This document shows positions 21,175 through 41,940 of a stretch of DNA of 64,000 nucleotides, in pieces (positions within the stretch are counted from its first letter, which is position 1; each line of letters opens with the position of its first letter). The DNA lies in NCBI RefSeq assembly GCF_018688315.1, contig NZ_CP061315.1, positions 744,001-808,000 on the forward strand, given 5' to 3'. Under the pieces are notes generated by a model. The model saw only the letters and a list, made by a program, of their open reading frames with translations. It was not told where the DNA came from and made no database searches. This DNA comes from Polynucleobacter sp. AP-Kolm-20A-A1. GTDB lineage: Bacteria > Pseudomonadota > Gammaproteobacteria > Burkholderiales > Burkholderiaceae. Both the position numbers and the translations under genes were made by a program.

Positions 21175-22383
21175 ATGAAGAGCAAAACCACACGCAAAAA
21201 ACCCGATTTTTCTAAGCTGGCGCTGGAGACCTTGGCTGTCCGCGCGGGCACTCGTCGCACCGCTGAATACCAAGAGCATTCAGAAGCAATGTTCCTAACA
21301 TCTAGCTTTTGTTTTGATAGTGCAGAGTTGGCTGCAGATGGTTTCGCACACGCAGATCAAGGTTTTATTTATTCTCGTTTCACCAATCCAACCGTTAGCA
21401 TGTTCCAGGATCGCTTGGCTGCCTTAGAAGGTGGTGAGGCATGTATTGCTACAGCATCAGGCATGTCAGCCATTTTGACAATGGCGATGGCTCATCTACA
21501 AGCAGGTGACCATGTTGTTTGTTCGCGCTCCGTATTTGGTGCAACGATTCAGTTGTTTAGCAATATCTTGGGTCGCTTTGGCATTACCACTACCTATGTT
21601 GATTTGGCTGATGCCAAATCATGGCAAGCTGCTGTCCAGCCAAATACCAAACTCTTTTATCTAGAGACGCCTTCCAATCCCTTAACTGAAATTGCCGATA
21701 TCAAAGCAATTTCAAAGATTGCCAAGAAGGCAAAAGCACTGTTTGCAGTAGATAACTGTTTTTGTACGCCGGCCTTACAAAAACCATTGGCGCTTGGCGC
21801 TGATGTCGTGATTCATTCTGCCACTAAGTATCTCGATGGCCAGGGTAGGGTAGTGGGCGGTGCAATTGTAGGCAGTAAAGATTTCATCATGGGTAAAGTA
21901 TTCCCGTACGTGCGTACCGCGGGCCCAACACTCTCAGCGTTTAATGCTTGGGTGTTCTTGAAGGGCTTGGAGACTTTAGAGCTTCGCATGAAGCAACAGA
22001 GTCAGAACGCTCTCGCCTTAGCGCAATGGCTTGAGAAGCAGTCAGGAGTGGAGCGTGTTTATCATCCAGGCCTCAAATCTCATCCTCAACATGCGTTGGC
22101 AAAACGTCAGCAAAAAGAGGGCGGCGCAATTCTGTCATTCACACTCAAGGGTGGCAAGAAGGCTGCATTCAAATTGATTAATCAAACTAAGCTTTGCTCG
22201 ATTACTGCAAATTTGGGCGATACCCGCACGACTATTACGCATCCAGCTACAACGACACATTGCCGTGTTAGCCCTGAGGCTCGTAAAGCTGCAGGCATCT
22301 CTGATGGCCTGGTACGTATTGCGGTGGGATTAGAAAACATCAACGATTTAAAGAATGACCTCGTTGGTGGACTCAAAAAATAA
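21175..22383 (+). CDS. metZ: O-succinylhomoserine sulfhydrylase
   Basis: A PLP enzyme of the Cys/Met metabolism family that makes homocysteine from O-succinylhomoserine and sulfide. The 402-residue sequence has the PLP lysine in SATKYLDGQGR (about residue 217), SGMSAI near 96, and the FSRFTNPT-type motif as YSRFTNPTV. The MetZ assignment over MetB or MetC rests on overall similarity and the purF-metZ neighbourhood. Direct sulfide incorporation fits the sulfur genes that follow. Confidence 0.9.
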   Translation: MKSKTTRKKPDFSKLALETLAVRAGTRRTAEYQEHSEAMFLTSSFCFDSAELAADGFAHADQGFIYSRFTNPTVSMFQDRLAALEGGEACIATASGMSAILTMAMAHLQAGDHVVCSRSVFGATIQLFSNILGRFGITTTYVDLADAKSWQAAVQPNTKLFYLETPSNPLTEIADIKAISKIAKKAKALFAVDNCFCTPALQKPLALGADVVIHSATKYLDGQGRVVGGAIVGSKDFIMGKVFPYVRTAGPTLSAFNAWVFLKGLETLELRMKQQSQNALALAQWLEKQSGVERVYHPGLKSHPQHALAKRQQKEGGAILSFTLKGGKKAAFKLINQTKLCSITANLGDTRTTITHPATTTHCRVSPEARKAAGISDGLVRIAVGLENINDLKNDLVGGLKK

Positions 22384-23048: not shown

Positions 23049-23765
23049 GTGAAGATAATAGAAATTAAAAATGCATGGCAGGGTAATAGCGATTGCAACG
23101 CATGCTCCATTCGAAGTTCGGCGCTCTTCGCTGAATTGAATGAGGAGGATTTCTCTAAGATTCATTCGCCCATTGATGATATGAGGTTTGAGTCTAATGC
23201 CAGTCTTTATACTCAAGGCGATGAAGCGGAATATCTGTATACCCTGCGTGAAGGGTACATCAAGTTGTTACATATCAATTCTGACGGCTCAAATAGAATA
23301 GTACGCTTGGTAATGCCTGGTGATTTATTTGGTATGGAGGCTTTGCTCGGTCAGACTTACTCCCATTCAGCTGCCGCTTTATCTAATGTGCATCTCTGCC
23401 GTATTCCTAAAGCAATTATCTCTAGCTTGGGGGAAGAGTCGCCACGCTTGCATAGGCAAATCGTCAAGAAATGGGGTGAGGCTTTAGCTCAATCAGAGTC
23501 CTGGTTCTCTGAAATCAATACTGGCAGAATTGAAATTCGCTTAGCTAGATTTTTCTTACGTATAGCCAAAGTTTCTGGCGATATGGCAGTTGCACCACTC
23601 TTTAAAAGAGAGGATATGGGCTTAATGATGGACGTCAAGTTTGAAACCATCAGTAGAGCGCTAGCTTCTATGGCTGAGCAGGGTTTAATTTCCAATATCG
23701 GAAAGTTAAGTATTCAAATTCCGAGTATAAAAAAGCTTGAAAGCTTTTCTCAAGCTGGTACTTAA
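23049..23765 (+). CDS. Crp/Fnr-family transcriptional regulator, FNR-like with three cluster-type cysteines
   Basis: A 238-residue regulator. GTG 23049 is the only usable start, since an in-frame stop lies at 23034. A cyclic-nucleotide-type sensor barrel spans residues 30-130 and a winged helix-turn-helix lies around 170-225. The recognition helix ETISRALASMAEQG keeps the E..SR pattern of FNR, which reads TTGAT-type half sites. Cys16, Cys19 and Cys117 align with FNR Cys20, Cys23 and Cys122, but the position of FNR Cys29 is Ala25. A redox or Fe-S sensing role is therefore possible but not assured. An FNR-like box sits at 24993-25006 ahead of the YeeE operon. Confidence 0.87.
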   Translation: MKIIEIKNAWQGNSDCNACSIRSSALFAELNEEDFSKIHSPIDDMRFESNASLYTQGDEAEYLYTLREGYIKLLHINSDGSNRIVRLVMPGDLFGMEALLGQTYSHSAAALSNVHLCRIPKAIISSLGEESPRLHRQIVKKWGEALAQSESWFSEINTGRIEIRLARFFLRIAKVSGDMAVAPLFKREDMGLMMDVKFETISRALASMAEQGLISNIGKLSIQIPSIKKLESFSQAGT

Positions 23766-23768
23766 AAA

Positions 23769-23799
23769 TAAAAAAGACTGCCTTGGCAGTCTTTTTTAT
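23769..23799. terminator. Bidirectional rho-independent terminator
   Basis: GACTGC and GCAGTC form a stem (23776-23791 core) flanked by an A-run on the left and a T-run on the right. It sits between the convergent regulator gene and the HiPIP gene and can serve both. Confidence 0.85.
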
Positions 23800-23835
23800 T
23801 TATCGAAATGATTCGACTAAAACTAAATTGCTAAC

Positions 23836-24144
23836 TTAAGCCTTCTTGGCGTAAGCAGAGCACCAACCTTTACCTGCAACCTTCTTTGTTCCAAATAATG
23901 AACAGCCACCAGTTGCATCGCCTGCTTTACCTTGGAACAATGCACAGTTATCGCACTCTTGGCCGGCAGCGTATTTTGCATACTTTGCTTTATCAACGGT
24001 TGTTGCGTTAGCCTTATAACCCAATGCAGCGGCTTGTGGATCAGTTTCTGCAACCATAGCTTGAGCTTGAACTTTACCGTTCAATGCAAGGGTGCAAGCA
24101 CCAGCAGCAGACAAAATCATAAATTGGCGACGACTATTTTTCAT
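23836..24144 (-). CDS. High-potential iron-sulfur protein (HiPIP)
   Basis: A small periplasmic 4Fe-4S electron carrier. ATG at 24144 gives 102 residues with a Tat signal (NSRRQFMILSAAGA), as expected because the cluster is inserted before export. The four cluster cysteines are at 64, 67, 81 and 95, in the family spacing C-x2-C-x13-C-x13-C with the conserved GWC near the end. HiPIPs donate electrons to terminal oxidases or reaction centres. Its position next to sulfur genes suggests it takes electrons from sulfur oxidation. Confidence 0.93.
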   Translation of the reverse strand: MKNSRRQFMILSAAGACTLALNGKVQAQAMVAETDPQAAALGYKANATTVDKAKYAKYAAGQECDNCALFQGKAGDATGGCSLFGTKKVAGKGWCSAYAKKA

Positions 24145-24269
24145 AAGAGTTTCCAGTGTTTGGGTAAATAAAAAGTCTAAATAACTAGCTATACGGCATA
24201 TTAAAGGGGATAACTCCACCATCAATAGGGGTTTCTCAGTATTAAGTTTAGCCAGACTTGGGCTCACAC

Positions 24270-24293
24270 TACGCAAATATGCATAAATGCGTA
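24270..24293. promoter_or_regulatory. 24-bp nested dyad between HiPIP and rhodanese genes
   Basis: Outer arms TACGCA (24270-24275) and TGCGTA (24288-24293) are perfectly inverted around a central palindrome TATGCATA (24278-24285), all sharing one centre. It lies 44 bases upstream of the rhodanese start in the divergent region and looks like a dimeric-regulator operator. It shares the string ATGCGTATA with the dyad in front of the sox ArsR gene (31449-31474). Confidence 0.55.
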
Positions 24294-24336
24294 TAGAAGC
24301 ATTTAAAACAGGTGTTTATCCAAATTAAGGGTTTTT

Positions 24337-24921
24337 ATGAAAAAGTTTCTTTCTTTTGGCCTGATGTTGTTTTCAGGTCTCGCCGCAGCGCAAACCAGTG
24401 CGCCCGCCAATCCAGAGTTGCTGCAAATTATTGATAAGTCCACCAACTTTGTAGTCAAAACGGCCAAAGGCCCAGTAGAAATCACACGCGTAATGACACC
24501 TTGTGCAAAAAATAAAGGTTGGCTACAGCCCTTAATTCCAATTAAGGGTGTTGTGCCGGTTGATGAGATTGATGTTCTTAATGCATTAAATGACAAGGAT
24601 TCGTTAGTAGTCGATATGCGAGTGGTTGATGACCGAGTCAAAGGAACTATTCCTGGCTCTATTGGTATTCCTTATACCGAAGTCGCTATGCGTATGGATG
24701 AATTGGGTTGTAAAAAGCCTGCAGCAGGCTCTACTAAATGGGACTGCTCTAAGGCTAAGAAGGTTTATGCATTCTGTAATGGCCCAGTTTGCCCACAAAG
24801 TCCAATGGCGATGGCTGCTATGACTCGTGATGGATTTCCTGCAACCAAGATCTACTACTACCGTGGTGGTATGTTGGACTGGGATGCATTGGGCCTAACC
24901 ACCATTAAAGGTGAGTTTTAA
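24337..24921 (+). CDS. Periplasmic rhodanese-like protein
   Basis: A 194-residue secreted protein with signal peptide MKKFLSFGLMLFSGLAAAQ and a single rhodanese domain from about residue 85. The active-site loop begins with Cys147 (FCNGPVCPQS) and carries a second Cys at 152, which could form a disulfide or polysulfide intermediate. Rhodaneses carry sulfane sulfur as a cysteine persulfide. The gene is divergent from HiPIP and ends in a strong terminator, so it is probably monocistronic. Confidence 0.86.
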   Translation: MKKFLSFGLMLFSGLAAAQTSAPANPELLQIIDKSTNFVVKTAKGPVEITRVMTPCAKNKGWLQPLIPIKGVVPVDEIDVLNALNDKDSLVVDMRVVDDRVKGTIPGSIGIPYTEVAMRMDELGCKKPAAGSTKWDCSKAKKVYAFCNGPVCPQSPMAMAAMTRDGFPATKIYYYRGGMLDWDALGLTTIKGEF

Positions 24922-24992: not shown

Positions 24993-25006
24993 ATGATGTA
25001 GATCAA
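24993..25006. promoter_or_regulatory. FNR-type box upstream of YeeE operon
   Basis: ATGATGTAGATCAA matches the FNR consensus TTGAT-N4-ATCAA at nine of ten positions. Its centre is about 70 bases before the start site expected from the promoter at 25035-25062, a class I activator distance. The FNR-like regulator at 23049 is a candidate ligand (inference). Confidence 0.5.
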
Positions 25007-25034: not shown

Positions 25035-25062
25035 TTGACATTGCATGCTATTTATATAATAT
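25035..25062 (+). promoter_or_regulatory. Sigma-70-like promoter of the YeeE/persulfide operon
   Basis: TTGACA at 25035-25040 and TAATAT at 25057-25062 with 16 bases between. A perfect TATAAT at 25055 would be only 14 bases from the -35. It is followed and overlapped by an AT-rich inverted repeat (25056-25079). Confidence 0.5.
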
Positions 25063-25079
25063 ACAAATATATATATTAT
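25056..25079. promoter_or_regulatory. AT-rich inverted repeat, possible ArsR operator
   Basis: ATAATATA and TATATTAT are inverted around 8 bases, covering the -10 region. SqrR/BigR-type ArsR repressors bind AT-rich dyads over promoters, and such a regulator is encoded in this operon at 28090. Low sequence complexity limits confidence. Confidence 0.4.
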
Positions 25080-25105: not shown

Positions 25106-25633
25106 ATGGTTAATAAGGTGGAGCGGGCTAAACCGGTGCCGTATATGAACTCACTTTTAGCGGGAATCCTTCTTGGAATGGTTCTATTGGCAACTTTTGT
25201 TGTCACTGGGCATGGGCTAGGTGCTACAGGATTTACTACTCGCTTAACAGCCTGGGTTGGAATGTATGTTGCTCCAGTTGCAACAAATGCAAACGATTAC
25301 CTGGGTGGGATGGTTGAAGATGGCAAGCCATTAAATGCATGGATTACATGGCAGGTAATTGGCGTAGCCATAGGAGCATTGCTATCAGCGTTCCTGGCGA
25401 AAAGAATTCAATTCAAGATGGACGGAGCAAAGTTTTTAGGTGGATCTAAGCGTCCATGGACAGCCCTTTGTGGGGGCGTGCTTGCAGGCTTTGGTGCAAG
25501 GATTGCGGCTGGCTGTACTAGCGGCCTTGGTTTGTCCGGTGCAGCAGTACTGAGTCTGGCCGGCTTTACCTTCCTGGGGGCATTTTTTGCCGTAGGTTTG
25601 TTGGCAAGCCGTTTCTTGAAAGAGGAGAAATAA
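25106..25633 (+). CDS. YeeE/YedE-family sulfur-compound transporter, half module A
   Basis: A 175-residue inner-membrane protein with about four helices. It carries the YeeE/YedE signature GARIAAGCTSGLGLSG with Cys137, the kind of buried cysteine that relays thiosulfate in TsuA. It pairs with the next gene, which starts 1 base after this stop; the two halves together correspond to one full YeeE fold (SoxT/PmpAB-like). Uptake or efflux of thiosulfate or another sulfur ion is inferred from family and context. Confidence 0.85.
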   Translation: MVNKVERAKPVPYMNSLLAGILLGMVLLATFVVTGHGLGATGFTTRLTAWVGMYVAPVATNANDYLGGMVEDGKPLNAWITWQVIGVAIGALLSAFLAKRIQFKMDGAKFLGGSKRPWTALCGGVLAGFGARIAAGCTSGLGLSGAAVLSLAGFTFLGAFFAVGLLASRFLKEEK

Positions 25634-25634
25634 G

Positions 25635-26201
25635 ATGAGTGAAATTCTCTCGGGGCTTTTATTGGGCGGCGCTTTTGGCTATGTCTTGGAACGCGCAGGA
25701 TTCGGTAATCCTAATAAGTTGACTGGCCAATTTCGCTTAACCGATTGGTCTGTATTTAAAGTGATGTTCACCGCCATTGTGTTTGCTGCTGTTGGCCTCT
25801 TAATTTTGGAAAAGACGGGATTTGTAGATGCTGGTAATTTATTTGTACCACCTGCATTTTTAGGCGCTGCCGCTCTTGGTGGGGCATTTGTTGGTGCAGG
25901 CTTTGCAATTGGTGGATATTGCCCTGGAACCTCAGTCGTCGGTTTGATGTCTGGACGCATTGATGCGGCCATATTTTTGCTTGGCTTATTGTTAGGGACC
26001 GTATTGTTTGCTGGTATCTATCCAGGCATCGAGTTCTTGACGACTTTGGGTGAATATGCAAAAGCAGATTCATTGCCTGACGCATTCCACATATCGGGTA
26101 TATCAATCGATGTTGGCTTGATTATTGCGGCCGTCGGAGTATTTATCTTGGGTTCTTGGATGGAGAGGAAGTCCAAAGGCCCGGTTAGTTCCCAGGTTTA
26201 A
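25635..26201 (+). CDS. YeeE/YedE-family (DUF6691-like) sulfur-compound transporter, half module B
   Basis: A 188-residue membrane protein with five or so helices and the matching half-signature GFAIGGYCPGTSVVG, with Cys96 in the pore-type motif. It starts 1 base after the preceding half, which implies equal expression and a heterodimeric transporter. The sulfur genes on both sides support thiosulfate or sulfane sulfur transport (inference). Confidence 0.85.
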   Translation: MSEILSGLLLGGAFGYVLERAGFGNPNKLTGQFRLTDWSVFKVMFTAIVFAAVGLLILEKTGFVDAGNLFVPPAFLGAAALGGAFVGAGFAIGGYCPGTSVVGLMSGRIDAAIFLLGLLLGTVLFAGIYPGIEFLTTLGEYAKADSLPDAFHISGISIDVGLIIAAVGVFILGSWMERKSKGPVSSQV

Positions 26202-26219
26202 TCAATTAAAAGGAAAGTT

Positions 26220-26453
26220 ATGTCTAAGAAATCAACAGTAGCTGCGTTGGCAATGGCTTTAGCTGGTTTGGCGGCTGCGCCATTGGCATATTCAGCAGAT
26301 GCCCCTGCTAATCCATCAGGCGCAGAGCAGAAGAACCCCTGCGGTCCTAAAAAAGAGTCGGCAAATCCATGCGGCCCTGCCAAGAAAAAAGCAGCTAACC
26401 CATGTGGCCCTGCAAATCCTTGCGGCCCTAAAAAGCGTAAAGCTGCAGAGTAA
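26220..26453 (+). CDS. Small exported protein with four NPCGP motifs
   Basis: I do not recognise a named family. The 77 residues have a signal peptide with likely cleavage after Ala26, then a mature part of about 50 residues made of NPCGP motifs (cysteines at 41, 51, 62 and 68) separated by Lys/Ala spacers. It is very basic and has no predicted fold. A strong Shine-Dalgarno (AAAAGGAAAG) precedes the ATG. Four exposed periplasmic cysteines in a sulfur-transport operon suggest a sulfane-sulfur acceptor or metal-binding peptide; this is inference. Confidence 0.75.
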   Translation: MSKKSTVAALAMALAGLAAAPLAYSADAPANPSGAEQKNPCGPKKESANPCGPAKKKAANPCGPANPCGPKKRKAAE

Positions 26454-26463
26454 TTAAATATAT

Positions 26464-27090
26464 ATGCTTACTCAATCTAATCTCTGGTTGGCCGCACAAG
26501 CGCTAGCAAATATTCAGATGCGATATGCCGAAACTGGGCGCACCTTGAATGAAGCTGCTTTATGTGGCGCCAAGGATTTTATTGAGTGGCAGCACTATCC
26601 AAGCAATGACCTTGTGGATGAGCAAAGTGGTTATGAGTTCTACTACCATGCGCATTCTGCAGATGAAATGCCTAATGGTGAGCATGGTCATTTTCATGTG
26701 ATTAAGCGTGATGAGAAGAGCTTTCATCACCTTATTGGTATTTCTTTAGACCAGAAGGGTTTGCCAGTTCGCTTATTTACCACTAATCAGTGGGTTACCG
26801 GCGAAGAGATGGCTAATTCGGACATTGTCATCAAACTCACTAAAGAGTTTCAAGTGACCACAAAAGGTCGAATGGCTCCAGTAAGCAATTGGATTAGCGC
26901 TTTAATTCAGTTATTTGCCGTAGAGATTGAGGCCCTAATTTTGGAGCGAGATCAAAAGATTGCTCGACTAGTGGAAGAGCAGGGCAATCGTGAGCTGGTA
27001 TTGAACTCAAAAAAGCATCATGTTTTAACAGAATGCAAGATTGATTTGATGGGTCGTCTTTCAGACAATTTGTTGGTTGTAAATTCATAA
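26464..27090 (+). CDS. Uncharacterised 208-residue protein with His-rich centre
   Basis: Function unknown to me; it may belong to a domain of unknown function. There is no signal peptide or membrane helix, so it is probably cytoplasmic. A central stretch at about residues 56-82 is rich in His, Tyr and Glu (YEFYYHAHSADE, GEHGHFHVI) and could bind metal or a cofactor. The C-terminal third (residues 150-185) is helical with charged heptads. It follows the NPCGP gene by 10 bases without a clear Shine-Dalgarno and precedes a tandem rhodanese by 10 bases, so it is part of the same operon. Confidence 0.75.
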   Translation: MLTQSNLWLAAQALANIQMRYAETGRTLNEAALCGAKDFIEWQHYPSNDLVDEQSGYEFYYHAHSADEMPNGEHGHFHVIKRDEKSFHHLIGISLDQKGLPVRLFTTNQWVTGEEMANSDIVIKLTKEFQVTTKGRMAPVSNWISALIQLFAVEIEALILERDQKIARLVEEQGNRELVLNSKKHHVLTECKIDLMGRLSDNLLVVNS

Positions 27091-27100
27091 GGGAGTAGAG

Positions 27101-28078
27101 ATGAAAAAAATTAAATTGCTTTTAGCATTTGCCCTAACCGGCTTGGTGAGCCTAGTTCAGGCAATTACTTTGCCTGGTCCTGTAGTCAGCGCCGATTGGT
27201 TGTCCAATAATCTATCTGATGTTCAGGTAATTGAAGTAAGAACGGATTTAGCAAGCTACCTCAGAAACCCTGAATTTGATACCGACAAAAAGACTGGTAA
27301 GAAATTCCTAGTAGAAGTAGGTGGCCATATTGCTAATTCAACACTCCTAGATTTTAAGAAAGTACGTGTTGAGCGCTCAGTGGATGGTAAGAAGATTAAG
27401 TTTCTAATTCCTGAAAAAGCAGATTTTGAGAAGTTGGTTCAATCTTTAGGTGTCAACTCTGATAAGCCGATTGTGCTCGTGCCCATTGGGCAGGATATGT
27501 CCGATATCGACGAGGCGTTAAGAACCTATTGGTCATTTAAGGTGTATGGCGAAGATCAAGTAGCTGTGTTGGATGGCGGTATTGCTGGGTGGCTTGGTGA
27601 GGGGCGTGAATATGTAACTACCAATGCTCAAAAAGCGACTGGCAATTGGTCTGCAAAAGCATATCGCAAAGAATTAATTGCCAGTTCAGATGATGTAGCT
27701 GCTTCGTCCAAAGCAGGTAAGCCACAATTATTGGATGCGCGTCAGCCTGCCCAATACTTAGGTCTTGCAAAACGTCCAGATGTGCTGACCTTTGGCCATA
27801 TTGCGGGCTCAAAAGAGTTGGCGCCTGAATTGTTAGCAAAGCCAAGCAATGGCGCATTGTATTTCTGGCAGAAAAATACTTATGACGCATTAATGGCAGC
27901 CAATGGTTTAAGTGTGAAAGGGCCAACAATTGCCTATTGCAATACTGGCCACTTAGCAGCTGGTGGTTGGTTTGTAATGTCAGAGCTAGTGGGCAATAAA
28001 TCTACTAAGTTATACGATGGCTCTTTGTATCTTTGGACTCTTGAAGGCCGCCCATTAGTCGGCGTTCCACTGAACTAA
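27101..28078 (+). CDS. Periplasmic tandem-rhodanese sulfurtransferase
   Basis: A 325-residue exported protein (signal MKKIKLLLAFALTGLVSLVQA) with two rhodanese domains. The N-terminal domain (about 28-165) lacks the catalytic cysteine and is structural. The C-terminal domain (about 195-320) has the active-site loop YCNTGHLAAG with Cys280. Thiosulfate or 3-mercaptopyruvate sulfurtransferase activity is expected from the family. A Shine-Dalgarno (GGGAGTAGAG) precedes the start. Confidence 0.87.
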   Translation: MKKIKLLLAFALTGLVSLVQAITLPGPVVSADWLSNNLSDVQVIEVRTDLASYLRNPEFDTDKKTGKKFLVEVGGHIANSTLLDFKKVRVERSVDGKKIKFLIPEKADFEKLVQSLGVNSDKPIVLVPIGQDMSDIDEALRTYWSFKVYGEDQVAVLDGGIAGWLGEGREYVTTNAQKATGNWSAKAYRKELIASSDDVAASSKAGKPQLLDARQPAQYLGLAKRPDVLTFGHIAGSKELAPELLAKPSNGALYFWQKNTYDALMAANGLSVKGPTIAYCNTGHLAAGGWFVMSELVGNKSTKLYDGSLYLWTLEGRPLVGVPLN

Positions 28079-28089
28079 GAGCGCCCATC

Positions 28090-28407
28090 ATGTCAGCACT
28101 TAGGGACAGTATCAATCTAGAGAAGATGCAGTCATCAGCAGACGATGCTTGTCGCTTGATGAAAGTGCTCTCGAATAGAGATCGTATGTTGTTGCTATGC
28201 CAGATAAGTCAGGGAGAGCTGTGCGTTGGCGAGCTCGAGGAATGTCTTGATATTCATCAGCCCACCTTATCCCAGCAGCTCACTGTTCTGAGAAATGAAG
28301 AACTGGTCCAAACCAGAAGAGATGGTAAGCAAATTTATTATTCACTTTCTAATCAGATTGCTTTGGAAGTGATGAATGTGCTTTATCAAAATTACTGCAG
28401 TAAATAA
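28090..28407 (+). CDS. ArsR-family regulator of the SqrR/BigR persulfide-sensing type
   Basis: A 105-residue winged-helix repressor. Cys37 (LLLCQI) and Cys103 (NYCSK at the end) are 66 residues apart, exactly the spacing of the sensing pair in SqrR (41/107) and BigR (42/108), where persulfides produce a tetrasulfide bridge and release DNA. Extra cysteines at 21, 45 and 52 are unusual. The DNA-reading helix is around HQPTLSQQLTVLRN. It sits inside the sulfur-transport operon, so derepression by sulfane sulfur is likely. Confidence 0.9.
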   Translation: MSALRDSINLEKMQSSADDACRLMKVLSNRDRMLLLCQISQGELCVGELEECLDIHQPTLSQQLTVLRNEELVQTRRDGKQIYYSLSNQIALEVMNVLYQNYCSK

Positions 28408-28424
28408 CCAAAAGGGGTCTTAAT

Positions 28425-28643
28425 ATGAAATGCAATGTCGGTGGTGTTGATCGTATGTTACGTATGGTGGTTGGCTTAGCGTTAATTGGTCTAGCCGTAA
28501 CCGGAACTGTTGGCGTATGGGGTTGGATTGGTGTTGTGCCTCTCACAACAGGCTTATTTAGATTTTGCCCGGCGTACCCACTCCTAGGAATCAATACTTG
28601 CGGTACTGACTCTTCATGTGGTGGCGGCGGTTGCTGTAAATAA
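28425..28643 (+). CDS. Small DUF2892 inner-membrane protein
   Basis: A 72-residue protein of the DUF2892 (YgaP-like membrane part) type. It starts MKCNVGGVDRMLRMVVGLALIG, has two membrane helices, and contains the conserved FCPAYPLLGINTC. The tail is Cys/Gly rich (CGTDSSCGGGGCCK), giving seven cysteines overall. In E. coli YgaP the same membrane region is fused to a rhodanese; here the rhodanese is a separate gene in the same operon. It is the last gene before a strong terminator. Confidence 0.85.
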   Translation: MKCNVGGVDRMLRMVVGLALIGLAVTGTVGVWGWIGVVPLTTGLFRFCPAYPLLGINTCGTDSSCGGGGCCK

Positions 28644-28654
28644 GTTGACTATAT

Positions 28655-28685
28655 AAAAAAGGGCAACCTCAGTTGCCCTTTTTTA
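28655..28685. terminator. Bidirectional rho-independent terminator
   Basis: GGGCAAC CTCA GTTGCCC stem-loop (28661-28677) flanked by A-run and T-run, between the convergent DUF2892 and prenyltransferase genes. Confidence 0.9.
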
Positions 28686-28698
28686 TGCCCAAATTTAA

Positions 28699-31448: not shown

Positions 31449-31474
31449 AATATATGCGTATACATGCATATATT
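31449..31474. promoter_or_regulatory. 9-bp inverted repeat over the ArsR start, probable autoregulatory operator
   Basis: AATATATGC (31449-31457) and GCATATATT (31466-31474) are perfectly inverted around 8 bases. The repeat covers the first candidate start codon (31454) of the ArsR gene. ArsR-family proteins bind such AT-rich dyads in their own promoters. Confidence 0.6.
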
Positions 31475-31825
31475 AAAAGGCTGATGGAATTGAAAGCAAG
31501 GGTTCAAAAGGCGACAAAAAACTTATCTCCAAAACAGATGGAGAAGGTCTTTTCTCAAGTGGCGGCCTATTTCAATGTCCTATCTGAGCCGGCACGCTTA
31601 CGCATTATGTATGCGGTCTGTAGCGGTGAAAAATCTGTTTCTGAAGTTGTTGAGATGTGTGGCACGAGTCAGGCCAATGTTTCGAGACATTTATTGGCGC
31701 TTCATAAAGCTGGAATTTTAATGAGGCGAAAAGAGGGTGTAACGGTTTATTACTCGATTGCGGATAACGCAACGGTGGAGATGTGTCAAACAGTCTGTGC
31801 AAAGATTGCAGAAGGCATTCATTAA
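31454..31825 (+). CDS. ArsR-family regulator of the sox cluster (SoxR-like)
   Basis: A winged-helix repressor of 123 residues from ATG 31454, or 113 from ATG 31484. The first has the better spaced Shine-Dalgarno (AAGGG, 8 bases), but its codons lie inside a perfect dyad. Helix-turn-helix: VVEMCGTSQANVSRHLLALHKAG (about 65-87). Cysteines are at 56, 69, 111 and 115; Cys56 matches the first SqrR sensing position, while the second would fall at 122 (Ile), so sensing chemistry may differ. It lies 35 bases ahead of soxC, consistent with thiosulfate-responsive repression of sox. Confidence 0.86.
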   Translation: MRIHAYIKRLMELKARVQKATKNLSPKQMEKVFSQVAAYFNVLSEPARLRIMYAVCSGEKSVSEVVEMCGTSQANVSRHLLALHKAGILMRRKEGVTVYYSIADNATVEMCQTVCAKIAEGIH

Positions 31826-31860
31826 GTTTTGCAGTAAATCACTTTTTAAGTAGAGGTCAA

Positions 31861-33261
31861 ATGACTAAGAAGCAAATTGAATTAAGTGCCGAGGATATCT
31901 CGGCAGTTGAAAAGCCGGCAAATAGAGCCCGCTTAGTTAAAGCGCCAGAGCACTTTATTTCTCAGGAGTTAATTGCTGACATCAACGCCAATGGCCTTGA
32001 TGAAAAACGCCGCGGCTTCTTGCGCAAAGGATTCATGTCTGCAGTTGGTGGTGCGGCAGCAGGCTTGGCTGCGCCTCTGGCCTTTGCTGCAGGTGAGGGT
32101 GACCCAGCAATTCTAGAAAAACAAGAATGGCAAACAACGCTTGGTAAGAACGTTGCCACCATGCCTTATGGCGTGCCTTCAATTTACGAGGCTAATTTAA
32201 TTCGTCGTGAGTCACCAGGTTTGACGCGTGTATCAGCAGCATCGGTTGCCTTTACACCCTTGCAAGGCTTATTTGGAACAATTACGCCAAACGGTTTGCA
32301 CTTTGAACGTCATCACCAAGGTTGGTACAACTTAAATCCTGAGACTCATCGTTTGATGGTGAACGGTATGGTGAAAAATGCTCGCGTCTTTACGATGAAC
32401 GACTTGATGCGTTTGCCTTCAGTTTCTCGTACTCACTTTATTGAGTGTGGTGCTAACACTGGTTTAGAGTGGGGCAACGTTGCCGTACCTACAGTGCAGT
32501 ACACGCATGGCATGTTATCTTGCTGCGAATTCACAGGCGTACCACTTAAAGTATTGCTTGAAGAATGCGGCGCTGACTTGAAAAAAGGTAAGTTCTTGCT
32601 TGCTGAGGGTGGTGATGGTTCCGGCATGACTCGCACCATCAACCTAGAAAGCTGCTTAGATGACACCATCGTAGCTTGGAGTATGAATGGTGAAATGCTT
32701 CGCCCCGAAAATGGATTCCCATTGCGCTTGGTAGTCCCTGGAGTGCAAGGTGTCAGCTGGGTTAAGTGGTTGCGTCGTCTTGAGGTTGGTGATATGCCTT
32801 GGAATACAAAAGATGAGGCGGTTCACTATATTGAACTGATGCCAGATGGCATGCATCGTCAATACGCATCTATTCAAGAATGTAAATCTGTGATTACCAC
32901 CCCTTCTGGCGGCCAGCAATTGCTAGATAAAGGTTTCTATAACGTCAGTGGTATGGCTTGGTCGGGTCGAGGCAAGATTAGGCGTGTAGATGTCTCATTT
33001 GATGGCGGCAACAACTGGCGTCAGGCGCGCCTGGAGACCCCGGTTCTTACTAAGTCCATTACACGTTTCAATATTGATTGGGTGTGGGATGGCTCACCTG
33101 CAATATTGCAATCTAGAGCTGTAGATGACACTGGCTATATTCAGCCTTCAATAAAAGTATTGCGTGATTTACGTGGTAATCGTTCCATTTATCACAACAA
33201 TGCAATTCAATCTTGGAAATTAGATTCAAATGGTGAGGTGAGCAATGTTCAAGTCGGTTAA
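31861..33261 (+). CDS. soxC: Sulfane dehydrogenase molybdenum subunit SoxC
   Basis: The molybdenum-cofactor subunit of Sox(CD)2, which oxidises the sulfane sulfur on SoxY in the periplasm. ATG 31861 gives 466 residues. A Tat signal (KRRGFLRKGFM, twin Arg at 50-51) is preceded by an unusually long 49-residue N-region. The molybdenum-ligating cysteine is Cys196 in HFIECGANTG. The oxidoreductase molybdopterin domain and C-terminal Mo-co dimerisation domain (SGMAWSGRGKIRRVDVSFDGG) are present. It overlaps soxD by 17 bases. Confidence 0.95.
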   Translation: MTKKQIELSAEDISAVEKPANRARLVKAPEHFISQELIADINANGLDEKRRGFLRKGFMSAVGGAAAGLAAPLAFAAGEGDPAILEKQEWQTTLGKNVATMPYGVPSIYEANLIRRESPGLTRVSAASVAFTPLQGLFGTITPNGLHFERHHQGWYNLNPETHRLMVNGMVKNARVFTMNDLMRLPSVSRTHFIECGANTGLEWGNVAVPTVQYTHGMLSCCEFTGVPLKVLLEECGADLKKGKFLLAEGGDGSGMTRTINLESCLDDTIVAWSMNGEMLRPENGFPLRLVVPGVQGVSWVKWLRRLEVGDMPWNTKDEAVHYIELMPDGMHRQYASIQECKSVITTPSGGQQLLDKGFYNVSGMAWSGRGKIRRVDVSFDGGNNWRQARLETPVLTKSITRFNIDWVWDGSPAILQSRAVDDTGYIQPSIKVLRDLRGNRSIYHNNAIQSWKLDSNGEVSNVQVG

Positions 33262-34336
33262 TTCTATTGCTCGTTTGAGTCTGCTCAGTCTTGCAGTATT
33301 GACTACCCAGATTTCATTTGCACAAAGCACGCAGGGATCTGCCAAGTTTCCAGGTATTGGTCGTAATGCCACTCCTGCAGAAGTAATGGCTTGGGATATT
33401 GACGTGCGTCCGGACTTCAAAGGTCTACCAAAGGGGTCTGGCTCTGTAGAGCAGGGTCAAGCAATTTGGGAGTCCAAATGCGCTAGCTGTCACGGTGTTT
33501 TTGGTGAATCCAATGAGATCTTTACACCGATTGCCGGCGGAACAACTACTGAAGATGTGAAGACAGGAAGAGTAGCCTCTTTGGCTGATCGTAAGCAACC
33601 TCAACGCACTACTTTGATGAAGGTTCCAACTGTTTCTACTTTGTGGGATTACATCTATCGTGCAATGCCTTGGAATGCACCAAGATCACTTACGCCGGAC
33701 AATACTTATGCGCTAGTGGCATATATTCTTAGTTTGGGTGAGATAGTCCCGGATGATTTTGTGCTTAGCGATGCAAACATTGCAGAAGTCCAGAAAAAGA
33801 TGCCAAACCGCAATGGCATGACGCGTAATCATGGCTTTTGGAGTGTTAATGGCAAGCCGGATGTTAATGGCTCTTCTTGCATGAATAACTGCGTCAAGTT
33901 TGTACAAATTGGCTCAACACTTCCAGATTTCGCAAGAAATGCACACGGCAATATTGCTGAGCAAAATCGTCAATATGGTCCATATCGTGGGTCAGATTCA
34001 ACCAAGCCACCAATTGCCAAGTTACCCGGATCAAGTGGCGAGGGATTGGCACATGCTGCAGATACCCATTCCTCTAATGCAAAAGGCCCCGCTGCTTTAT
34101 TTAAGAATGAGAACTGTTCGGCTTGTCATGCGCCAAATGCTAAGCTGGTCGGTCCTTCAATTGCTGATATTGCTGCCAAATATCAAGGGCAGAGTGGTGC
34201 TCTAGATAAATTGATGGCCAAGGTTAAAAATGGCGGCTCTGGTGTATGGGGCTCAATTCCGATGCCACCACAAGCGCAATTGTCAGATGCAGATCGTAAG
34301 GCACTAGTTGAATGGGTGCTTTCAGGGGGTAAATAA
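33245..34336 (+). CDS. soxD: Sulfane dehydrogenase dihaem cytochrome c subunit SoxD
   Basis: Periplasmic electron-accepting partner of SoxC. The 363 residues have a Sec signal (ISFAQ end) and two c-haem sites, CASCH at Cys79 and CSACH at Cys291. The N-terminal domain resembles SoxD proteins of chemolithotrophs. Its start lies inside the 3-prime end of soxC, suggesting coupled translation. Presence of SoxCD implies complete oxidation of thiosulfate to sulfate without sulfur globules. Confidence 0.95.
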   Translation: MFKSVNSIARLSLLSLAVLTTQISFAQSTQGSAKFPGIGRNATPAEVMAWDIDVRPDFKGLPKGSGSVEQGQAIWESKCASCHGVFGESNEIFTPIAGGTTTEDVKTGRVASLADRKQPQRTTLMKVPTVSTLWDYIYRAMPWNAPRSLTPDNTYALVAYILSLGEIVPDDFVLSDANIAEVQKKMPNRNGMTRNHGFWSVNGKPDVNGSSCMNNCVKFVQIGSTLPDFARNAHGNIAEQNRQYGPYRGSDSTKPPIAKLPGSSGEGLAHAADTHSSNAKGPAALFKNENCSACHAPNAKLVGPSIADIAAKYQGQSGALDKLMAKVKNGGSGVWGSIPMPPQAQLSDADRKALVEWVLSGGK

Positions 34337-34417
34337 GGGCTGCTTAGGTAATAACCAGTATGGTTTATTAGAAAGCAGATAATATATTCACAGTATGAGA
34401 TTAATAAAGGAGTTTTT

Positions 34418-34870
34418 ATGAATCAGCAGCGACGCAGTTTATTGAAATATTCAGCCGTATTTGGCTTGATGGCTTCTGCGGGTCTTATTAGCGTAGCCCA
34501 GGCTCAAGAGTGGAATAAAGCCGCTTTTGAAGGCAAGAGCCTTGACGATGTATTTAAGATCTTGGGTGCAGGCAGCCCAGAGAAGTCTGGTGCAGTTACT
34601 TTGAATGCCCCTGACATCGCCGAAAATGGTGCAGTTGTGCCGGTCGGCATTACAACCACCCTTAAAGCAGAGCAAATGGCCATCTTGGTTGAGAAAAACC
34701 CAAGCGCCTTAGCTGCTCAATTCTTCATTCCTGCTGGCACTGAGCCATTTGTTACTACACGTATCAAGATGGGTCAGACCTCCAATGTATACGCCTTGGT
34801 AAAAGCTGATGGCAAATGGAGTATGTCTGTTAAGGAAGTGAAAGTAACTTTGGGTGGTTGCGGCGGTTAA
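34418..34870 (+). CDS. soxY: Sulfur carrier protein SoxY
   Basis: The covalent carrier of Sox intermediates. It has 150 residues with a Tat signal (NQQRRSLLKYSAVFG) and the diagnostic C-terminal swinging arm VTLGGCGG, whose Cys148 binds the sulfur substrate. A good Shine-Dalgarno (AAAGGAG) precedes the ATG. It is exported folded with SoxZ. The 81-base gap after soxD could hold an internal promoter. Confidence 0.96.
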   Translation: MNQQRRSLLKYSAVFGLMASAGLISVAQAQEWNKAAFEGKSLDDVFKILGAGSPEKSGAVTLNAPDIAENGAVVPVGITTTLKAEQMAILVEKNPSALAAQFFIPAGTEPFVTTRIKMGQTSNVYALVKADGKWSMSVKEVKVTLGGCGG

Positions 34871-34926
34871 TCGCTGTTAATCAAAACCAATACTGTTAAT
34901 TAATTACTAGATTAAAAGAGGAAAAA

Positions 34927-35235
34927 ATGGCTGATCCGATGCGCGTTAGAGCTGCTGAGAGCGGTGGAGTAGTGGATGTAAAAATTTTGATGAAGCATGA
35001 TATGGAGTCTGGTCAGCGTAAAGACGCTTCAGGCAAAGTTATTCCAGCATGGTTTATTAGCACTATCAACGTCAAAGCTAATGGCAAAGATGTATTGAAT
35101 GGTCAGTTTGGTCCAGCAGTTTCAAAGGATCCATTCTTGAACTTCAAATACAAAGGCGCTAAGGGCGACAAGATTGTTGTTAGCTGGGTAGATAGCAAAG
35201 GCGACAAACGTACTGATGAAGCTACTGCTTCTTAA
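34927..35235 (+). CDS. soxZ: Sulfur carrier partner SoxZ
   Basis: Forms the heterodimeric carrier with SoxY. The 102 residues have an Ig-like beta fold and no signal peptide of their own, consistent with piggy-back Tat export on SoxY. Family sequence features include the MRVRA start, KHDMESG and the FGPAVSKDPFLNFKYKG region. The 56-base gap to soxY contains a Shine-Dalgarno (AAAGAGG). Confidence 0.94.
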   Translation: MADPMRVRAAESGGVVDVKILMKHDMESGQRKDASGKVIPAWFISTINVKANGKDVLNGQFGPAVSKDPFLNFKYKGAKGDKIVVSWVDSKGDKRTDEATAS

Positions 35236-35272
35236 TATCAATACGCATAATTAAAACTATAAAAGGGTTACC

Positions 35273-36115
35273 ATGAAAGCACGCATTTTATATGGCGTTA
35301 TTATTGGCTTATTTGCAGTGTTGCAGGGCTGTTCAAGTCCAGCAAAAAATGAGGCTTCTACAGCAGCACCTCCAACAGGAGGTGCTCCAACTGACGAAAT
35401 TGAAAAATATCGTGCAATGATTGCCGATGGTAACCCTGCTGACTTGTATGAAGCAGCGGGTGAGGATATTTGGAAAAAGCCAATGGGCCCAAAAAATGTC
35501 TCACTTGAAAAATGCGATTTGGGTATGGGTCCTGGCGTTGTTAAGGGTGCCTATACTCAATTGCCAAAATACTTTAAAGATACAAACAAAGTTCAAGATT
35601 TGGAGTCTCGTTTAGTAACTTGTATGGAAAAGTTACAGGGTTACAACAGTCAAGAAATTATTAAGGCTGGCTTTGAAAAGGGCAAGCGTAAGGATGTTGA
35701 GGCAGTGGTTGCCTATGTTGTTGCTGAATCCAAAGGCATGAAAATCAACACTGTTGCTAAGCATCCTAAAGAAAAAGAAATGTATGACCTCGGCAAGAAG
35801 TCTTTCTTCTACCAAGGTGGTCCAATGGACTTCTCATGTGCATCGTGCCATAGCGAGAACGGTAAGCGTATTCGTTTGCAAGACTTGCCAAATATTACTG
35901 AGCAAAAAGGTGCCGCCCTTGGTTGGGGTTACTGGCCAGCTTACCGTGTTTCAAGTGGAAACTTCTGGACAATGCAACGTCGTCTAAACGACTGCTATCG
36001 TCAACAACGTTTCCCTGAGCCGATTTACATTTCTGACGACACTATCGCTGTTTCCCTCTACATGGCAATTAATGCCAAGGGCGGAACAATGAATGCACCT
36101 GGACTGAAGCGTTAA
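35273..36115 (+). CDS. soxA: L-cysteine S-thiosulfotransferase haem subunit SoxA
   Basis: With SoxX it oxidatively couples thiosulfate to SoxY. The 280-residue sequence begins with a lipoprotein-like signal (VLQGCSS, lipobox LQGC). It has a single c-haem motif CASCH at Cys189 and the catalytic haem-ligand cysteine in RRLNDCYRQQR (Cys241). The first-domain haem of dihaem SoxA proteins is not seen, so this is the monohaem form. Confidence 0.93.
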   Translation: MKARILYGVIIGLFAVLQGCSSPAKNEASTAAPPTGGAPTDEIEKYRAMIADGNPADLYEAAGEDIWKKPMGPKNVSLEKCDLGMGPGVVKGAYTQLPKYFKDTNKVQDLESRLVTCMEKLQGYNSQEIIKAGFEKGKRKDVEAVVAYVVAESKGMKINTVAKHPKEKEMYDLGKKSFFYQGGPMDFSCASCHSENGKRIRLQDLPNITEQKGAALGWGYWPAYRVSSGNFWTMQRRLNDCYRQQRFPEPIYISDDTIAVSLYMAINAKGGTMNAPGLKR

Positions 36116-36133
36116 TCGCTGGAGATAAATAAC

Positions 36134-36739
36134 ATGAAAAATAAATTATCCTTATTAGCACTTGCGCTTACTTTATCAATCGGTGCTGCACATGCTGCAA
36201 CTCCATTTGAAAAGATGATGTACTCTAGTTTTGAAGCTAAAGGTCAGGCTGGACTCGATCGTCTCGACCAAGATGCTGCCCAAAAGTTTTGCTCCAACCA
36301 GGCTAATTTAACTGGTGGTGGTGATGCAAAGTTGCGCGAAAAAATCCAGAACGACAATATGGCAACCATCAAGCAGCCTTCTGATGGTAAATATATTGGC
36401 GACTGGAAGAGCGGTGAAAAGATCGCTCAAAGTGGTCGTGGCGCTACTTGGTCTGATAAAGCGGGGAGCGAAAACGGTGGCTCTTGCTACAACTGTCACC
36501 AGATCAACATCAAAGAAGTTTCCTATGGAAACATCGGCCCATCTCTTTGGAACTACGGAAAATTACGTGGCTATTCTAAAGAAGTGGTTCAGTACACTTG
36601 GAACCGCATTAATAATGCAAAGGCATATAACGTGTGTAGCAATATGCCTCGTTTCGGGCACTTCAAACTCTTAAATGAAAAGCAAATGCAGGATGTCATG
36701 GCATTGCTCTTAGATCCAGAGTCGCCTGTTAATAAGTAA
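36134..36739 (+). CDS. soxX: L-cysteine S-thiosulfotransferase cytochrome subunit SoxX
   Basis: A periplasmic monohaem cytochrome c of 201 residues with a Sec signal ending in AHAA and the haem site CYNCH at Cys118. A late methionine in CSNMPRFG is the likely axial ligand. It receives electrons from SoxA during thiosulfate coupling. It follows soxA by 18 bases and is followed by a terminator-like hairpin before soxB. Confidence 0.94.
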   Translation: MKNKLSLLALALTLSIGAAHAATPFEKMMYSSFEAKGQAGLDRLDQDAAQKFCSNQANLTGGGDAKLREKIQNDNMATIKQPSDGKYIGDWKSGEKIAQSGRGATWSDKAGSENGGSCYNCHQINIKEVSYGNIGPSLWNYGKLRGYSKEVVQYTWNRINNAKAYNVCSNMPRFGHFKLLNEKQMQDVMALLLDPESPVNK

Positions 36740-36747
36740 TAAAAATA

Positions 36748-36773
36748 AACAGGCCGAAAGGCCTGTTTTCTTT
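36748..36773 (+). terminator. Intercistronic hairpin between soxX and soxB
   Basis: AACAGGCC-GAAA-GGCCTGTT (36748-36767) with a stable GAAA loop and a following TTTTCTTT. It has the form of a rho-independent terminator yet lies inside the sox cluster, 17 bases ahead of soxB. Confidence 0.75.
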
Positions 36774-36784
36774 AGGAAAATACT

Positions 36785-38515
36785 ATGTCTTTAAATCGTC
36801 GTGAGTTTTTGCAAGCATTAGCTATCGCCTCTGCAGGCGGTATGAGTTTGCAATCTAATTTTGCTAGCGCGCAAACCACTGCGCAAAAATTCTATGATTT
36901 GCCTAAGTTCGGTAATGTGCATTTCCTGCACTTCACCGACTGCCATGCGCAACTTCTCCCAATCTATTTCCGCGAGCCTAATGTCAATCTTGGTATTGGT
37001 GCTCAGGAAGGCAAAACACCTCACTTGGTAGGCGAATATTTCTTAAAGGCAAATGGTATTAAGCCTGGTACACGTGATGCTCATGCCTTTACATATCTTG
37101 ATTACGTTGCGGCAGCACAGAACTACGGCAAGATGGGTGGATTCGCCCATATGGCTACATTGGTTAAGCAAATGAAAGCAAATCGTCCGGGCGCTTTATT
37201 GCTTGATGGTGGCGATACATGGCAGGGTTCCGGTACGGCTCTTTGGACCAATGGTCAAGATATGGTCGATGCTGCTCTTGCGCTGGGCGTGGATGTAATG
37301 ACACCTCACTGGGAGATGACTTTAGGTGAGAAGCGCGTGATGGAAATCGTGAATGGCGATTTCAAAGGTAAAGTCAATTTTGTTGCGCAAAATATTAAAA
37401 CAGCCGACTTTGGTGATTCCGTATTTAATCCTTATGTCATGAAAGTGCAGAACGGTATTCAGGTTGCCATTATTGGTCAGGCCTTTCCGTATACACCAAT
37501 TGCCAACCCACGTTACTTCACGCCAGATTGGACTTTTGGTATTCAAGAAGAAAATCTCCAGAAGACCATTAATGAAGTGAAGTCTAAGGGAGCCAAGGTT
37601 GTGATTCTGCTTTCCCATAATGGTATGGACGTGGATTTGAAGATGGCTTCTCGCGTAAGCGGTCTAGATGCCATTATGGGCGGACATACGCACGATGGTG
37701 TCCCCATTCCTGTCAAGGTTAAGAATTCCGGTGGTGTCACTCTGGTTACCAATGCTGGATCTAATAGCAAGTTCTTGGGTGTGCTCGATTTTGATGTGAA
37801 GGGCGGCAAGGCAGTTGATTTCCGTTATAAGCTATTCCCAATCTTCTCGAACATGATTCCTGCTGATCCAACAATGAACAAGTTGATTGCAAAAATCAGA
37901 GCGCCGTTTGAAACAAAGTTAAATGAGAAATTGGCAACCACTGAAGGCCTCTTGTATCGTCGCGGCAACTTCAACGGCAGCTTCGACCAGCTAATCTTGG
38001 ATGGTTTGATGGCACAGAAGAATGCTGAGATTGCTTTCTCCCCAGGCTTCCGTTGGGGAACTAGTTTATTGCCAGGTCAGGCCATCACTCGCGAGAATCT
38101 TTTGGATCAAACGGCGATTACCTATCCGTACACCACAGTTACCAATATGAGCGGTGAAACCATCAAGACTATTCTTGAGGATGTGGCAGACAACTTATTT
38201 AATCCAGATCCGTATTACCAGCAAGGTGGCGATATGGTGCGCGTTGGCGGCATGCAATACACCATTGACCCTGCGCAAACAGCTGGTAAGCGTATTACAG
38301 ATATGCGCTTAAACGGCAAGCCAATTGAGGCAAGCAAGACTTATAAAGTTGCAGGCTGGGCACCCGTGAGCGAAGAAGCAAAGAATGCTGGCGGCGAGCC
38401 AATCTGGGATGTGATTGAGCGTCACCTGCGTGATGTCAAGGTAGTTAAAGCAGTTAAGCTGAATGAGCCAATCATTAAGGGTGTTGCAAACAACCCTGGT
38501 ATGGTTTCGATCTAA
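36785..38515 (+). CDS. soxB: Thiosulfohydrolase SoxB
   Basis: A dimanganese enzyme that hydrolyses sulfate from the SoxY-bound intermediate. It has 576 residues with a Tat signal (NRREFLQALAIASAGG). Metal-binding motifs of the 5-nucleotidase superfamily are seen: HFTDCHAQL (about 50-58), DGGDTWQGSG (about 142), the SoxB signature region HWEMTLGE, and GGHTHDG (about 300). The Shine-Dalgarno is weak and lies in the preceding hairpin's T-rich tail (TTTAGGAAAA). Confidence 0.95.
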   Translation: MSLNRREFLQALAIASAGGMSLQSNFASAQTTAQKFYDLPKFGNVHFLHFTDCHAQLLPIYFREPNVNLGIGAQEGKTPHLVGEYFLKANGIKPGTRDAHAFTYLDYVAAAQNYGKMGGFAHMATLVKQMKANRPGALLLDGGDTWQGSGTALWTNGQDMVDAALALGVDVMTPHWEMTLGEKRVMEIVNGDFKGKVNFVAQNIKTADFGDSVFNPYVMKVQNGIQVAIIGQAFPYTPIANPRYFTPDWTFGIQEENLQKTINEVKSKGAKVVILLSHNGMDVDLKMASRVSGLDAIMGGHTHDGVPIPVKVKNSGGVTLVTNAGSNSKFLGVLDFDVKGGKAVDFRYKLFPIFSNMIPADPTMNKLIAKIRAPFETKLNEKLATTEGLLYRRGNFNGSFDQLILDGLMAQKNAEIAFSPGFRWGTSLLPGQAITRENLLDQTAITYPYTTVTNMSGETIKTILEDVADNLFNPDPYYQQGGDMVRVGGMQYTIDPAQTAGKRITDMRLNGKPIEASKTYKVAGWAPVSEEAKNAGGEPIWDVIERHLRDVKVVKAVKLNEPIIKGVANNPGMVSI

Positions 38516-38535
38516 TTTAAGTCATGGGACGTGAA

Positions 38536-38973: not shown

Positions 38974-38981
38974 AAAGTTAG

Positions 38982-40335: not shown

Positions 40336-40356
40336 TTTTTTCAAGATTTGATCGCT

Positions 40357-41478: not shown

Positions 41479-41501
41479 TTTCACAGAAAACAAAATAAAT
41501 A

Positions 41502-41939: not shown

Positions 41940-41940
41940 G

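Follow-up and report, generated by a model that had tools for sequence, protein, structure and literature searches.

The window analysed here is a stretch of 64,000 nucleotides from Polynucleobacter sp. AP-Kolm-20A-A1 (contig NZ_CP061315.1, positions 744,001 to 808,000), and positions 25106-28643 of it hold seven genes on the same strand of a 1.92 Mb genome. We read these genes as a self-regulated operon for periplasmic capture and import of sulfane sulfur, built on a widespread and undescribed pair in which an exported Cys-repeat peptide would be the thiol carrier and a DUF6969 protein its cytosolic maturation partner; we give this reading about even odds (roughly 0.5). The partnership of peptide and DUF6969 is well supported by genome context; the chemistry and the flow of sulfur are inferred. 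That the two genes keep turning up side by side in many unrelated bacteria suggests a so far undescribed route by which Cys-rich carrier peptides are prepared. Within the limits of the literature library searched, no description of the pair was found and DUF6969 appears in no paper. The transporter, rhodanese and regulator part is a variant of known sulfane-sulfur operons.

Gene families were called with Pfam and NCBIfam profiles, and signal-like N-termini in the operon were judged by eye. An earlier note on this DNA had described a compact run of seven genes with gaps of 1-18 bp opening with two YeeE half-transporters, and both points were confirmed: all open reading frames (ORFs) lie on the forward strand, with intergenic gaps of 1, 18, 10, 10, 11 and 17 bp from gene 1 to gene 7, and are probably co-transcribed. 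The PmpA-like protein (25106-25633, 175 aa) matches profile positions 178-306 of PF04143 (Sulf_transp), the C-terminal half, and the PmpB-like protein (25635-26201, 188 aa) positions 2-155, the N-terminal half; the two proteins are adjacent and between them match both halves, as in a PmpAB-type half-transporter pair. Cysteines lie in GCTSG and GYCPG, as read from the sequence unaligned to TsuA, and a PDB sequence search gave no YeeE match for either protein. The third gene (26220-26453) encodes the 77-aa peptide with a signal-like N-terminus and four NPCGP units, and the fourth (26464-27090) a protein without a signal peptide by eye. The latter had been described as unrecognised and His-rich; that label is rejected, as the protein belongs to DUF6969 (PF22308; 178.4 bits against a Pfam gathering cut-off of 27), a Pfam family of unknown function. 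The count of at least two parts without known function therefore holds, with one of them now a named family. The fifth gene (27101-28078) encodes a tandem rhodanese with a signal-like N-terminus and two PF00581 stretches, which matches PDB rhodaneses at E 1e-20 and carries a catalytic-loop cysteine in the second domain only (CNTGHLA), the arrangement of tandem thiosulfate sulfurtransferases. An ArsR/SmtB regulator (28090-28407) and a YgaP-like_TM membrane protein (DUF2892, Pfam match) with a Cys-rich tail (28425-28643) complete the run.

Within Polynucleobacter, the 19 of 61 genomes that have DUF6969 are exactly those that have the peptide (lists compared by hand), and the tandem rhodanese occurs in the same 19 plus two more with the gene at a contig edge. 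Eighteen of the 19 have their genes in the order PmpA-PmpB-peptide-DUF6969-rhodanese; in genome G004, the rhodanese comes after PmpAB and is separated by an OMPP1/FadL-type gene from the peptide and DUF6969. The nearest DUF6969 from a named organism is that of Polynucleobacter sp. JS-Polo-80-F4, at 96% identity.

Outside the genus, DUF6969 was found in 20 of 398 genomes of a phylum-wide draw, 26 of 321 from the window's class and 74 of 337 from a second class. The last is presumably Alphaproteobacteria, since one of its members (G147; genomes are labelled G and loci L) groups with named Sphingomonadales on the DUF6969 tree. We also used an 80-locus set from named hosts, the best 80 of 549 confirmed with up to 10 kb of flank, ranked by similarity to the DUF6969 of L053; because that reference is YeeE-linked, the set over-represents the sulfur context. 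The peptide was counted in 76 of these loci, leaving out L063, L072, L112 and L124 with a short upstream flank. By a fixed rule (an exported Cys tandem-repeat ORF within 3 kb, its signal called by hydropathy and not by SignalP), a Cys-repeat ORF stands near DUF6969 in 57/76 loci against 2/90 control windows; an earlier, stricter rule gave 48/80 against 3/48. Under the fixed rule, the phylum-wide draw gave hits at 13 of its 17 distant loci and at 0 of the 28 controls; the control stretches were 4.6 kb and the test stretches up to 6.6 kb long. A rule without the signal test, applied to 1.5 kb flanks, found the ORF in 17/25 loci of the window's own class, where L152, L156 and L158 were added by eye, and in 8/28 of the second class, where L180 looks spurious. 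The second-class figure, which covers 28 loci from the best-scoring 30 matches among 74 positive genomes, rose to 17/28 with longer flanks and the fixed rule within 3 kb (L242 is doubtful; L265 was added by eye). Some places recur among the sets (L053=L056, L092=L203, L081=L192, L059=L157, L066=L153, L130=L173). A lenient reading by eye adds ten loci to the 80-locus count, giving 67/76, or 46/47 in sulfur contexts and 21/29 in others, with four of the ten (L057, L058, L065 and L067) holding only two cysteines each and counted because of where they lie and of an N-terminal motif that they share. L053, too, was judged positive by eye. The peptide gene lies directly upstream of DUF6969 and co-directional with it in 48 of 58 positive loci, at a median gap of 42 bp. 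The linkage is strong but not universal.

The peptide matches no Pfam family at E <= 1, DUF2282 included. Among the 45 longer of its 55 homologues, 156 of 160 cysteines stand in an xPC context. The repeat type varies from locus to locus (NPCGP/NPCAP, NPCAAK, CGAK, CAA, EGC), as does the number of cysteines, with a median in the 48 co-directional loci of 4 in sulfur contexts (36 loci) and 10 elsewhere (12 loci). One type, in gammaproteobacterial cassettes and the single one from Hyphomicrobiaceae, has a hydrophobic N-terminal helix, an IDHTRHRLPEP-like motif and C-terminal SPCSL-like units. The motif follows the helix at L056, L057, L058, L061, L065 (IDHTEHKLPE), L067, L152, L156 and L158, loci of gamma type plus one from Hyphomicrobiaceae. 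The repeats also occur fused to a rhodanese (L088), to SoxA/TsdA-type cytochrome c (L042, L044, L046, L047) and to cytochrome P460 (L107; L039 falls below the cut-off). At L088, from an Acetobacteraceae bin, a PCGP/PCAP-repeat leader is joined to the rhodanese domain, with DUF6969 adjoining and PmpA/PmpB just upstream. In Rhodobacteraceae (L105, L111, L118, L123), long divergent ORFs with 25-38 cysteines in Ala-Cys repeats lie ~2.7 kb from DUF6969.

Across 100 DUF6969 sequences, H62, H64, G75, H76, H78, H89, G99, N108 and R162 (window numbering) are invariant, and the invariant residues of a second set (n=52, led by a canonical member) match them. Two structure models (pLDDT 95.0 and pTM 0.91; pLDDT 95.6 and pTM 0.92) agree on the element order of N-terminal helices, a five-strand run and C-terminal helices, and the histidines are modelled on or beside the strands. 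The invariant histidines may form a metal site. A more far-reaching proposal, which we hold tentatively and at less than even odds, is that DUF6969 represents a previously unseen class of metalloenzyme for peptide maturation. It would have no relation to MNIO and would modify, or load with metal, the members of a large and so far undescribed superfamily of Cys-repeat peptides exported by Sec. The sulfur operon would then be one specialised branch, with the modified peptide serving as a periplasmic persulfide carrier that feeds PmpAB.

A core cassette that combines YeeE/PmpAB and the Cys-repeat peptide with DUF6969 and the periplasmic tandem rhodanese is found repeatedly in betaproteobacteria, gammaproteobacteria and some alphaproteobacteria. 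In the 80-locus set, YeeE lies no more than 3.5 kb from DUF6969 at 42 loci, the tandem rhodanese at 44, both at 37 and either at 49; hosts include Thiomonas, Tepidimonas, Ideonella, Hydrogenophaga, Rhodanobacter, Nevskia, Ectothiorhodospiraceae and Hyphomicrobiaceae. The Hyphomicrobiaceae YeeE is a fused 404-aa form, to which those of the gamma cassettes align over 379-402 residues. A SoxC relative stands within 6 kb at L069, L070, L074, L089, L095, L112, L115, L119 and L132. In the draw from the window's class, 11 of the 25 loci other than the window's own have YeeE and rhodanese both no more than 1.5 kb away. Approached from the rhodanese, a draw at order level found tandem forms in 11 of 300 genomes; five of the six at >=49% identity lie in the cassette, and a contig end truncates the sixth. 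The five remote tandem rhodaneses lie outside it. In a tree built from 100 DUF6969 proteins, 4 changes of sulfur context suffice against a shuffled mean of 32.5, and 0 of 500 shuffles were as low, a figure to which near-copies contribute. ArsR (5 of 80 loci) and DUF2892 (2 of 80) within 3.5 kb are local additions to the cassette, and the idea of all seven genes as one conserved unit was rejected on these counts.

BigR is the best NCBIfam model for the regulator, whose C37 and C103 correspond in alignment to the SqrR/BigR cysteines in 3pqj and 6o8k, as for a two-redox-cysteine sensor. It scores 110.7 bits, below the equivalog cut-off of 155, and we therefore call it SqrR/BigR-like and not BigR. 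Upstream of the first gene, an FNR/Anr-type box ATGATGTAGATCAA (24993-25006, forward strand) has one mismatch to TTGATN4ATCAA. An AT-rich dyad at 25057-25078 is a candidate operator of the ArsR-type regulator by its conservation and its single exact occurrence in the genome. Both elements had been proposed in the earlier note, and both proved conserved: among 18 related Polynucleobacter promoters (17 loci and L055), the box at <=1 mismatch occurs in 11 against 29 of 950 shuffles, and the dyad TAATATAYAAN4ATATATTA at <=2 mismatches in 13 against 1 of 950, mostly ~50 bases upstream of the aligned PmpA start. A sigma-70-like promoter (25035-25062, forward strand; TTGACA, 16 nt, TAATAT; 10/12 positions) overlaps the dyad, which could fit a repressor site; promoter-like sites in the region are no commoner than in shuffles (6 against a mean of 8.0). 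A stable terminator hairpin (28652-28687, forward strand; -20.7 kcal/mol, z -7.05, 0/200 shuffles equally stable) closes the operon, as the earlier note had stated.

Just upstream of the operon, 23049-24921 holds a Crp/Fnr-family regulator (23049-23765), a high-potential iron-sulfur protein (HiPIP) and a rhodanese that has one domain and a signal-like N-terminus, which are grouped in several genus members. A sox cluster (31454-39959) starts 3 kb downstream of the operon in the order ArsR, SoxC, SoxD-like cytochrome, SoxY, SoxZ-like, SoxA, SoxX-like cytochrome, SoxB and a metallo-beta-lactamase with a signal-like N-terminus, where we take the SoxD-, SoxZ- and SoxX-like names from domains and gene order. 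Behind it, at 40348-42384, come a YeeE of full length and another pair of YeeE halves, of which the second is DUF6691-like, so that the window holds three separate YeeE transporters.

Taken as a mechanism, the module would work as follows. DUF6969 would encounter the peptide while it is still cytosolic, ahead of Sec export, and mature or load its cysteines via the putative metal site of invariant histidines, and the exported peptide would then bear reactive thiols in the periplasm. The tandem rhodanese may move sulfane sulfur from thiosulfate or polysulfide onto these thiols, from which the PmpAB pair would deliver it to the cytosol. The SqrR/BigR-like regulator is expected to release the dyad on persulfidation, and an FNR-type factor might adjust expression to oxygen.

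Several observations weigh against this reading. YeeE and rhodanese together flank only 1 of the 17 distant DUF6969 loci of the phylum draw (fetched flanks), and the pair is therefore not a sulfur device in most of its range. Across Pseudomonadota, the peptide is a closer companion of DUF6969 than sulfur genes are. The sulfur module proposed earlier survives as the recurrent four-part cassette, while in the phylum-wide draw DUF6969 homologues sit mostly outside sulfur contexts, an outcome that the earlier note had named as refuting. Relaxed and whole-locus scans left 9 of 76 loci without the peptide, and 11 of 28 second-class loci lack it by rule in the fetched flanks (one has it by eye). The peptides of the gamma-type loci L057, L058, L065, L067 and L152 have only two cysteines, fewer than one would expect of a bulk carrier. 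The case for metal binding by DUF6969 is residue conservation, and structure and sequence comparisons gave no solved relative and no recognised enzyme fold. The dyad is retained at L211, L213 and L215, although the 10 kb fetched there contain no close copy of this ArsR gene and instead an ArsR nearer to that of the sox cluster; L202 and L216 also lack this ArsR, and their dyad is weaker (4 mismatches). The link between ArsR and the dyad is therefore unproven; the aligned cysteines and the conserved dyad that precedes the operon support the self-regulation proposed earlier. Finally, SoxB occurs in 58 of 61 genus genomes and the module in 19 of 61, so that the module is accessory and not needed for Sox; its assignment to the Sox machinery proper was rejected.

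The alternatives are not all exclusive of our reading, and their odds need not sum to one. One that overlaps with it keeps the sulfur relay and makes DUF6969 a non-enzymatic holdase or secretion chaperone that holds the peptide reduced until Sec export. We regard this as unlikely, though a serious candidate: a partner that stays constant while the repeats vary (NPC, CAA, CGA, EGC, SPCSL) is what a general handler would look like, and the lack of a recognised enzyme fold in DUF6969 fits it too, but the invariant residues are mostly histidines and do not form a hydrophobic groove. That peptide and DUF6969 merely travel together without a functional link is hardly credible. The block is co-inherited within the genus, so the genus counts alone prove little, and the second-class loci without a peptide by rule would suit it; recurrence in several classes with differing other partners, set against the 0/28 and 2/90 of the controls, makes it unlikely. 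An assimilatory operon taking up thiosulfate or sulfane sulfur for cysteine synthesis is improbable as well. A gene at 21175-22383, which we take to be metZ-like, would fit, as would the inclusion of TsuA thiosulfate importers in the YeeE family, documented in PMC11582611. No TusA/TsuB-like domain is found in any of the seven genes, however, and export of the rhodanese, a regulator of persulfide type and the presence of sox genes 3 kb further on speak for a dissimilatory or detoxifying role.

A different role for the peptide, that of a bufferin-like copper (metal) buffer matured by DUF6969, with YeeE and rhodanese only supplying or detoxifying persulfide, also appears rather unlikely, even though parts of the wider neighbourhood recall bufferins. 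The bufferin set MNIO-DUF2063-DoxX stands beside DUF6969 at the peptide loci L054 and L106 and ~6-7 kb off at L046; an MNIO relative lies at L139, where MNIO alone matched, and at 6.3 kb at L096. MNIO is present somewhere in 9 of 10 other YeeE-cassette genomes. DUF6969 has FGE-like (FGE-sulfatase-like) neighbours at 16 of the 28 second-class loci (L161-L188), and at L116, L131 and L134 it adjoins genes that we take, from their sequences, to encode extracytoplasmic function (ECF)-type sigma factors and anti-sigma-like (zf-HC2) proteins. The related loci L040, L041, L043, L130 and L135 also carry what is presumably a large TRAP-like permease. According to the bufferin survey (PMC12452194), bufferins are fused with Cytochrom_C and FGE, which the FGE-like neighbours and the NPC-cytochrome fusions mirror, and sigma-factor genes occur in their clusters; its main text has no occurrence of DUF6969 or PF22308. 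Against a copper buffer, none of the seven genes is a copper gene or encodes MNIO (PF05114), and the bufferin enzyme is missing from all 19 DUF6969-bearing Polynucleobacter genomes, for which the peptide as a plain bufferin was rejected. The peptide matches no Pfam family at E <= 1, and hence not DUF2282, the Buf1 precursor signature, in a search over the Pfam profiles. The sulfur branch, moreover, retains YeeE and rhodanese over a deep tree. Because both the MNIO and the DUF2282 tests fail, the pair was not filed as a bufferin despite its bufferin-like layout.

The cassette offers a concrete candidate for the carrier, with its own transporter and rhodanese, for handing sulfane sulfur through the periplasm to the cytosol, and a domain of unknown function gains a testable substrate. 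Should DUF6969 modify cysteines, it would be a second enzyme class for exported peptides resembling ribosomally synthesized and post-translationally modified peptides (RiPPs).

Among known systems, the PmpAB/YedE1E2 operons of Serratia, Cupriavidus and Agrobacterium share with this one two adjacent half-length YeeE genes and adjoining sulfur genes, according to PMC10812762 and PMC11582611; YedE1E2, relatives of PmpAB, facilitate uptake of zero-valent sulfur (PMC10812762). Those operons are described there beside a persulfide dioxygenase, whereas the half-transporters here are joined by an exported Cys-repeat peptide, DUF6969 and a tandem rhodanese, and the known halves are given as about 130 aa, each with one functional cysteine, against 175 and 188 aa here. 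Bufferins (PMC12452194) resemble the pair in that a signal-like N-terminus precedes a Cys-rich peptide, the neighbouring gene encodes a cytosolic partner dedicated to it, and there are links to cytochromes and FGE; they differ in relying on MNIO and DUF2282, neither of which was found here (MNIO in 0/19 genus genomes, the DUF2282 signature unmatched by the peptide), and no relationship between DUF6969 and MNIO turned up in our comparisons. SoxT and TsuA belong to the same Pfam family as PmpA and PmpB and have a full-length relative in the window at 40348-41478, but they are full-length proteins where the operon has two halves. E. coli YgaV-YgaP likewise joins a SqrR/BigR-type regulator to a YgaP-like membrane domain, and the ygaV structure 3cuo matches the regulator of the operon. 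In YgaP a rhodanese domain is part of the same protein, whereas in the Polynucleobacter operon the rhodanese is a separate protein.

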